Under the pieces are notes generated by a model. That model ran no database searches and was not told where the DNA came from. It was given only the letters and a program-made list of their open reading frames with translations. From a virus, in IMG/VR virus record IMGVR_UViG_3300002907_000004, positions 1 through 35,183 of that record: 35,183 bases of DNA. The stretch is one strand, 5' to 3'. Both the position numbers and the translations under genes were made by a program. Numbering within the stretch: position 1 is the stretch's first letter; each line of letters opens with the position of its first letter. This document shows positions 7,839 to 9,483 of the stretch, piece by piece.

Positions 7839-7949
7839 ATGAAGTTAGAAGGTTGGAAGGCTGGTGTTGTGCTAACAGCATCAATAATCATTATACTAAA
7901 TCTTCTCGTAACAGTTCCTGTTATAGTTGGTTTAGCCTTCGTCCACTAA
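7839..7949 (+). CDS. 36-residue membrane peptide
   Basis: A short N-terminus (MKLEGWKAG) is followed by one long hydrophobic helix containing ASIIIILNLLV and a tail ending AFVH. The ATG follows AAAGGAGAAGAA, a strong ribosome binding site. The size, single membrane helix and Val-His end recall the peptide at 4856-4963. It is the last gene before the 1.2-kb gene-free stretch. The function is unknown. Confidence 0.6.
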   Translation: MKLEGWKAGVVLTASIIIILNLLVTVPVIVGLAFVH

Positions 7950-8388
7950 TACTTAATTCTACAGCATGAACCCTCCCCGCCTCGGGATACCCCACCCTCC
8001 TGCCGGACTCAGGTACCGGGCTGTAGTAGGTCGCCTTCTTTCGGTTGGCGACAAACCAAGTGCAATCCCTACTAGGAATGTAGCCATCAGGGTGACGCCC
8101 CATAACTTCGTCAGCAACAGTGCCAGAGAGTCCTACCCTTAGAGTGGGTCTTGTCGAGCTGGCTGAGCAAGATGGTGAGCGAAGGTAGTGAGCACAACCG
8201 TAGCAGAAACCGGTCTCATTAGCCGGCGCGGTAGATAGCAAATAGATGTCGCAGATCCTATGGGCCATGGTGCATGGTGCATATGAACTCCTTAGGAGTG
8301 GATGTATGAGGATAAAGGACTTGTCTTAAATGGCTAACGATCTGAAGTGGAATAAGGTGGCGGAATAAAGGTTGATCTACCACTCCCT

Positions 8389-8421
8389 GTTGGTTCGATC
8401 CCAACACTCCGTGTGACGGAG
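8389..8421 (+). other. tRNA T-arm joined to a mini-acceptor hairpin, permuted order
   Basis: GTTGG (8389-8393), TTCGATC loop (8394-8400) and CCAAC (8401-8405) form a perfect T-arm. It is followed by CTCCGT (8407-8412), which pairs with ACGGAG (8416-8421) across a 3-base loop. The would-be 3' acceptor strand therefore comes before its partner, as in a circularly permuted tRNA. No matching 5' acceptor strand lies upstream. No CCA is encoded. Confidence 0.5.
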
Positions 8422-8460
8422 ACTGGCGGCAATGGTGGCGCGCAGAAAACTGAGCAAGTT

Positions 8461-8499
8461 TCGGTTCGATGCCGATAGAGCTTGGGTAGCAGATGGCTC
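8461..8499 (+). other. Second T-arm-like hairpin with downstream partner
   Basis: TCGG (8461-8464), TTCGATG loop and CCGA (8472-8475) form a 4-bp T-arm. GAGC (8478-8481), just after it, can pair with GCTC (8496-8499) over a 14-base loop. I found no upstream acceptor strand for a normal tRNA. GGGTA (8484-8488) can also pair with TACCC (8506-8510). Confidence 0.35.
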
Positions 8500-8563
8500 G
8501 GTGAGTACCCCGTAGTAGATAGATAGATGACCGAGGGACGCACGCATCGTGAATGGTGTGTAT

Positions 8564-8602
8564 GCTGGTTCGAGTCCAGCCCTAGTTTCATAATGTAGTA
8601 GG
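8564..8602 (+). other. Third T-arm-like hairpin with downstream partner
   Basis: GCTGG (8564-8568), TTCGAGT loop and CCAGC (8576-8580) form a perfect 5-bp T-arm. CCTA (8581-8584) can pair with TAGG (8599-8602) over 14 bases, competing with the 7-bp hairpin 8599-8605/8619-8625. The expected upstream acceptor strand of a normal tRNA is missing. Confidence 0.35.
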
Positions 8603-9143
8603 ATCGTGATAAAAGCGAGATCCTATGTAGGTTAAACTCAGCTACTAAGTCGTACTGCACGAACTGAGTTAGCATTAATGGTAAGAGATACCTCTCAGCC
8701 TCTCTGACCCGACTGCTGCCACACCCTAATGTGGCTCTGGTTGCGAGACGCAACATCTATGTACCGCACACTGGATACGGATAACCTCCAGGCCTATGAG
8801 CGTGATGTGCAAAGAGTCGGAAGACCGTAGATGTGCAGCGATGGATTGTTTATCCATTTGGCTGGATATAGACTGCCACTTGGCAGGGATGGTGCCGTAC
8901 GTAAAGATCACCGTTCAGGCACGTCAAGCCGCAGACTACTGAGACTGGATGTACCGCCCAACCGGAAGCGAGGGCATACGTCGACGGTAGAATAAGACGA
9001 ACTATAGTAGGTCGTTACATGGCTGAGATAGTCCGCATCAAGCCTGTCCAGCAAGTCCATAACCCCTCTAGCTGATGGAGTACGCGATGAACATCCGTTC
9101 CTCTCAGCAGAAACCCAGACCTCCTTAAGAAAATCAACAGGCA

Positions 9144-9170
9144 GGGGTGGGCCGCGAACGAGCCCACCCC
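9144..9170 (+). other. 9-bp GC-rich hairpin in the leader of the 9193 gene
   Basis: GGGGTGGGC (9144-9152) pairs with GCCCACCCC (9162-9170) around a 9-base loop. It is not followed by a T-run. It sits just upstream of the GAAGGAGAG ribosome binding site. The 5' arm and flank (9140-9154) are nearly identical to 499-513. Confidence 0.55.
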
Positions 9171-9192
9171 GAGCTACGAAGGAGAGCGTGTC

Positions 9193-9483
9193 ATGAAGAA
9201 ACTTATGCTGGTTGACCCGGAAGATTTCTTCTCTCAGGGTCGTCGAGACAAGCGAACCATCCCGATGGATGATCTGAAAATATACAAGAAGTGGAAGAAG
9301 TTCTTGAAGAAGGAAGAAGAAGAAAAGAATAAGAAGAATAGTCCCAGTGGTTGGTGGAACAAGAAATCTGTCGCTGAAAGGACAACCATCATTATGGTCT
9401 TTGGTCCACCTGTAGGTTTAGCTTATGCCTTCACGTTGTACCAGTTTACTAAAATGTTAGCCATGTCTGTGGGGATACACTGA
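9193..9483 (+). CDS. Small membrane protein with a charged N-terminal region
   Basis: This protein has 96 residues, with an ATG after GAAGGAGAG. The first 60 residues are polar and strongly charged, with a lysine- and glutamate-rich helix (KKWKKFLKKEEEEKNKKN). The C-terminus has one or two hydrophobic segments (TTIIMVFGPPVGLAYAFTLY and FTKMLAMSVGI). It may be anchored in the inner membrane with its charged part in the cytoplasm. It is the first gene after the structured gene-free stretch and overlaps the next gene by one base (TGATG). The family is not recognised. Confidence 0.7.
   Translation: MKKLMLVDPEDFFSQGRRDKRTIPMDDLKIYKKWKKFLKKEEEEKNKKNSPSGWWNKKSVAERTTIIMVFGPPVGLAYAFTLYQFTKMLAMSVGIH

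Follow-up and report, generated by a model that had tools for sequence, protein, structure and literature searches.

A conserved large RNA with a permuted tRNA-like module and a Pro-Pro-stop leader ORF in a lineage of uncultured phages

Comparison of related genomes indicates that a stretch of about 1.2 kb between two replication genes of an uncultured phage encodes a conserved structured RNA. The RNA family is absent from Rfam, and its carriers form an entire lineage of uncultured, podophage-like viruses. Its central domain contains a circularly permuted tRNA-like module (8388–8443), and a short ORF with an invariant Pro-Pro-stop ending lies near its 3′ end. We favor, with a probability of roughly 0.55, a reading in which this large RNA would dock on host machinery by means of a tRNA mimic and would have, at its end, an arrest-type switch that acts on the next gene. 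To our knowledge very few large structured phage RNAs have been described, and the functions of two of them, GOLLD and ROOL, are still unknown. If the favored reading is true, a giant phage RNA would be connected with translation or with RNA decay. The tRNA-like module, which has a small relative in YrlA, and the conserved Pro-Pro-stop ORF are two handles that make the function of the RNA directly testable.

The window, meaning the whole stretch of DNA analysed, is a 35,183-base IMG/VR record and a linear fragment. Its replication block is T7-like by Pfam and PHROG matches, with a primase/helicase, DNA polymerase A, an SSB-like gene, a Cas4-type exonuclease and endonuclease I; the SSB-like gene itself has no Pfam or PHROG match and keeps the name given to it in the preliminary description of this DNA. 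The window also encodes a uracil-DNA-glycosylase-like protein (PF03167, 2929–3735) and an LPD23-domain protein (PF18838, 13165–14829). The stretch at 7959–9120, between the SSB-like and exonuclease genes, had been described as gene-free, densely folded and a candidate large phage ncRNA. Relatives were gathered from IMG/VR by searching first with the SSB-like protein and then with alignments of both the SSB-like protein and the exonuclease. After removal of duplicates 81 contigs had a stretch to examine, a few of them cut at the contig end. The gap between the two genes was 1.4–4.2 kb in most of the 81. In a nucleotide-profile comparison, the alignment spans much of the RNA in about 20 contigs and the core in about a dozen more, and nearly all the rest match only in the 3′ part, including the downstream gene. 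The large RNA is present in at least twenty related uncultured phages and probably in about 75; beyond the approximately 20 contigs with full-RNA nucleotide homology, membership is judged by position, by T-arms and by the leader ORF. Direct DNA comparison of the RNA stretch with named phages gave chance-level matches only, and a scan of genome contigs for the host of the window phage gave no useful match. Two named phages with related exonucleases were inspected, Roseobacter phage CRP-13 and Sinorhizobium phage phiM6, and both lack an RNA insertion before the exonuclease gene.

The longest protein encoded between approximately 7947 and 9192 is 13 amino acids. The earlier claim that the stretch holds no credible gene is correct for 7950–9080, where there is no gene-like ORF, but a real 13-codon ORF lies at 9087–9128. 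Pairwise comparison of the window with L002, L004, L006 and L011 revealed that 18/20, 20/24, 20/24 and 18/23 indels in the stretch, respectively, are not multiples of three, and that substitutions are spread evenly across the three codon positions. In contrast, the flanking SSB-like and exonuclease genes have no frame-breaking indels and their substitutions fall mostly in the third position. These results rule out a protein-coding reading and a hidden gene in the stretch; conserved codon structure in one frame, named beforehand as an observation that would count against an RNA, was absent. The GC content is raised as had been reported, 0.48–0.52 compared with mostly 0.37–0.46 in the neighbours. 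The conserved extent of the RNA is greater than had been stated. The best estimate is 7947–9192 on the + strand, based on homologues that are 69–80% identical and in the same place in L002–L006, and on covariation. It begins with a conserved 5′ sequence, TAATACTTAATTCTACAGCA (7947–7966, + strand), identified by alignment. A pattern search found a single copy of this sequence in the window, which rules out a phage-wide repeated promoter at 7947. No standard promoter or intrinsic terminator was found at the RNA ends. A 36-amino-acid hydrophobic ORF 3′ of the SSB-like gene (7839–7949), absent from the aligned homologues, has a stop codon that overlaps the conserved 5′ sequence.

Folding of the single sequence (7950–8900) was no better than that of shuffles (z −0.09), so hairpins drawn by eye are no evidence in themselves. 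Dense folding, as claimed earlier, was not borne out by the single sequence but was borne out by comparison. The consensus structure obtained with alifold from nine full or near-full homologues has 235 pairs, with 90.5% of cells paired. Its consensus energy was −376, compared with −238 ± 8 for 12 column-shuffled alignments folded in the same way and −342 for the reverse complement. The + strand was assigned from the T-loops and the lower + strand energy together. Base pairs that changed on both sides and still paired numbered 106, compared with 54.5 ± 4.6 in shuffles (0/500) and 19–32 when partners were slid, kinship among the sequences inflating the shuffle-based contrasts. Refolding the 12 column-shuffled alignments gave 39 ± 7 such pairs. 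The alignment used for these counts is also the one from which the structure was derived. Eight more distant sequences left out of the structure gave weaker support, with 52–67% paired compared with roughly 30–47% when slid. The covariation across homologues that had been proposed as a check is therefore present, and the stretch is non-coding, conserved, covarying and without an Rfam match, in keeping with its description as a candidate large phage ncRNA that could be a new class.

The structure has three domains, all on the + strand. The 5′ domain (7964–8313) includes covarying helices 8003–8008/8013–8019, 8066–8073/8184–8191 and 8083–8088/8171–8176. The central domain (8317–8623) is closed by an invariant helix (8317–8323/8616–8623), inside which are helices 8337–8343/8601–8607 and 8347–8351/8587–8591 with five and three both-side changes, respectively. 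The 3′ domain (8671–9024) has many covarying helices, such as 8679–8688/8701–8710 and 8948–8958/8973–8982. Two short sequences recur among the gap stretches. The motif GTCTCATTAG occurs in approximately 22/81, on the + strand only, and is found at about 8214 in the window. The hairpin loop AGTATCCTAGAA is kept in 8 stretches, including L093, L110, L096, L098 and L045, while its stem varies.

The central domain of the window RNA contains three perfect T-arms (8388–8406, 8461–8475 and 8564–8580), the first of which opens the permuted module. T-arm 1, with stem TGTTGG/CCAACA and loop TTCGATC (helix 21), is 100% paired, and 5/6 of its pairs changed on both sides. It is followed by an acceptor-like hairpin, CTCCG/CGGAG (8407–8421, helix 22), in which a short loop replaces the free CCA end, and by a D-arm-like hairpin, TGGCGGCAATGGTGGCGCGC (8424–8443), whose pairing evidence is weak, helix 23 having no both-side changes. 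T-arm 2 and a hairpin at 8480–8490 are enclosed by helix 24 (8450–8455/8496–8501), in which 6/6 pairs covary and 83% are paired; this unit (8450–8501) comprises helices 24–26. A hairpin at 8542–8561 precedes T-arm 3, with stem GCTGG/CCAGC and loop TTCGAGT (helices 27 and 28). All of these features are on the + strand. Across the gap loci all 118 T-arm hairpins found were on the + strand, the − strand having none, and 61/81 contigs had at least one. Their density was 0.62 per kb inside the gaps compared with 0.01 per kb outside. A pattern search found a T-arm followed by a D-arm-like hairpin, either directly or via a short hairpin, in 16 contigs and none on the other strand. A covariance model trained on 14 of the 16 matched L084, L100, L040, L121 and L039, which were outside the training set (E ≤ 0.0003), and only 2/118 of its matches were on the − strand.

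When the modules were reordered to tRNA order and given a generic anticodon arm, ARAGORN called 10/12 tRNA. In a control with ten modules, 8 were accepted intact, compared with 23/300 when the T- and D-loops were shuffled, 17/300 when the T-loop alone was shuffled, 68/300 when the acceptor hairpin was shuffled and 0/15 for other hairpin pairs. Since 229/300 were still accepted when the D-loop alone was shuffled, the D-arm is the least certain part of the module. A stem at the anticodon-stem position was significant in several contigs (L093, L026, L084, L110 and L039) and had no support in the window. Circularly permuted tRNA genes place the 3′ half before the 5′ half (PMC3978253). The module shares this order; unlike those genes, it has no evident anticodon arm or free CCA end, and its acceptor is shut by a short stable loop. 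A search for permuted tRNA in phages found nothing on point among the papers it covered. The association with tRNAs known for large phage RNAs had been raised at the outset; tRNA-like parts are indeed present, but inside the RNA and not beside it. The mimic module had gone unnoticed in what was called a gene-free stretch, as had the Pro-Pro-stop ORF and the link to a small-protein gene.

The leader ORF at 9087–9128 (+ strand) encodes MNIRSSQQKPRPP followed by a stop codon and is preceded by the Shine-Dalgarno (SD) sequence GGAG at 9077–9080. A scan that required an SD sequence and accepted ATG, GTG or TTG starts found a short ORF ending in Pro-Pro-stop in the gap of 75/81 contigs. Two of the other six are cut off before this point (L015 and L027), and four have no detectable RNA match (L047, L119, L120 and L122). 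Such ORFs numbered 76 in 190 kb of gap sequence, whereas the opposite strand had 2 and the 717 kb outside the gaps had 6. The 69 distinct peptides, whose lengths cluster at 11–15 and 20–24 residues, have a median identity of 9% apart from the ending, whereas Pro-Pro-stop is invariant. Since the proline codons vary (CCT, CCA, CCG and CCC), selection seems to act on the peptide. Pro-Pro before a stop codon slows termination, C-terminal prolines induce tmRNA tagging, and TnaC stalls at a proline before its stop codon. The leader ORF has the attributes of an arrest leader peptide, being short, SD-led, conserved at the C-terminus and upstream of a gene. TnaC, SecM and Sec/YidC-linked peptides are likewise short ORFs upstream of a regulated gene, which in several cases is one for membrane-insertion machinery (PMC10987492, PMC8429421). 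Unlike these peptides, the leader ORF is conserved at Pro-Pro-stop alone and lies 3′ of a structured RNA of >1 kb.

The gene downstream of the leader ORF encodes a 96-amino-acid protein with a C-terminal hydrophobic segment (9193–9483, + strand) and no Pfam or PHROG match. In most contigs the leader ORF is likewise followed by a gene for such a small protein, with exceptions such as L043, L103, L116 and L117. In most contigs these small proteins have a charged or Pro/Tyr-rich start before the hydrophobic segment. A GC-rich hairpin (9144–9170, + strand, helix 47), with 7/11 pairs changed on both sides, lies between the leader ORF and the gene. CUCCU at 9121–9125, within the two proline codons, can pair with AGGAG at 9180–9184, the SD sequence of the next gene (+ strand). 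This helix (helix 46) is 92.5% paired with no both-side changes, evidence that is compatible with the pairing rather than proof of it.

The tRNA look-alike and the Pro-Pro-stop ORF suggest a link to host translation or RNA-decay machinery. In the favored reading the module would fold like a tRNA elbow and dock the RNA onto a tRNA-recognising host factor. By analogy with the equivalent domain of YrlA, which docks on PNPase and on tRNA-modifying enzymes, candidates are PNPase, the ribosome and modification enzymes. Ribosomes that start on the leader ORF would arrest or terminate slowly at Pro-Pro-stop, and their occupancy there may control how the downstream gene is translated. For the window clade, occupancy may act by keeping the downstream SD sequence from pairing with the proline codons. 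The remainder of the RNA would be a scaffold and may act in trans. More tentatively, a new class of giant phage RNA might combine tRNA mimicry and a Pro-Pro-stop arrest ORF in one molecule, the parked ribosome and tRNA-like core jointly capturing or reprogramming host ribosomes or RNA-decay machinery during infection.

Of the alternatives, the one that fares best, although we consider it rather improbable, is that the entire stretch serves as a very long 5′ leader acting in cis on the gene at 9193–9483, with no separate ncRNA. In this riboregulator the tRNA-like parts and the domains would sense the state of translation and feed the Pro-Pro-stop switch. There is no terminator between the RNA and the gene, most contigs keep the leader ORF and the gene together with similar spacing, and the proline codons can pair with the SD sequence of the gene. 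However, known leader-peptide attenuators are far smaller than this elaborate conserved structure of over 1 kb, most of which has no visible pairing to the gene.

It is unlikely that the RNA is a YrlA-type Y RNA grown large, its module binding PNPase and another part binding host Ro60 (Rsr) to redirect RNA decay during infection. YrlA is 90–150 nt long and tethers Rsr, the Ro60 relative, to PNPase, its tRNA-like domain binding PNPase and its stem binding Rsr (PMC8394870). Several phages are said to carry YrlA (PMC7765460). The module and YrlA (RF02553) share the order T-arm, loop-capped acceptor hairpin, D-arm, and RF02553 aligns to the same arms, also in that order, scoring 29.4 bits in L087 and 22.4 bits in L101. 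The higher of these scores, the best obtained, is below the gathering score of 69 bits, and the window has no RF02553 match. Furthermore, the window RNA is about 1.2 kb, approximately ten times longer than YrlA with its Ro60-binding stem, and unlike YrlA it has several T-arms and a 3′ leader ORF. A Ro60/TROVE gene was found in 0/36 phage contigs of the lineage, although the host might carry a copy. The module therefore works, at most, like the tRNA mimic of YrlA, and the whole RNA is not YrlA.

Similarly doubtful is a self-assembling RNA cage like those of GOLLD and ROOL, in which the T-loops would make intra- or intermolecular contacts and there would be no functional tRNA mimicry. GOLLD and ROOL form RNA-only cages (PMC12286853), and the window RNA resembles them in being large, ornate, phage-encoded and connected with tRNA, as well as in its size class and its large covarying structure. 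Unlike them, it has internal tRNA-like parts and another gene neighbourhood, and the order of T-arm, acceptor and D-arm is specific to tRNA. The preliminary description offered membership of GOLLD or ROOL and proposed an Rfam search for these families, tmRNA and tRNA. No family matched in the window or nine relatives, and neither the GOLLD nor the ROOL covariance model gave a hit even at E ≤ 10. The RNA is therefore not recognised as GOLLD or ROOL.

A canonical tRNA or tmRNA was ruled out, since ARAGORN found none in the window or L002–L010; this covers tRNA genes with a complete cloverleaf in normal order, and neither Rfam nor ARAGORN matched tmRNA in the window or its relatives. Permuted (two-piece) tmRNA has a permuted tRNA-like domain upstream and a short frame ending in a stop codon downstream, as does the window RNA. 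The tmRNA tag frame lacks its own SD sequence and start codon (PMC8012679), whereas the leader ORF is SD-led with its own start in 75 contigs. Decayed remains of a tRNA gene array, suggested by the perfect T-loops and by an antisense frame (8334–8756) with the strings GLDSNQ and VGIEPTGS typical of antisense tRNA translation, are highly improbable because decay would preserve neither the compensatory changes found in the stems nor the permuted order that recurs in diverged phages.

Pattern scans of IMG/VR showed that other phages, many of them with tRNA arrays, have the arrangement of the module as well, with loops of the TTCG or GNRA type. The module model from the window lineage scores the best of these sites at 35–49 bits, and Rfam calls some of them sub-threshold YrlA (RF02553). 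Such YrlA-like permuted mimics occur in L130, L165, L192, L221, L224, L237, L249, L263, L269, L318, L376 and others. They amount to 39 sites, 36 of them without a canonical tRNA over the T-arm and many with a TACTTC motif upstream. In L250 (201–274) and L318 (1075–1149), tRNA genes read in antisense give sub-threshold matches to RF04354 (Plastid-ycf2), which is possibly a model built on antisense tRNA.
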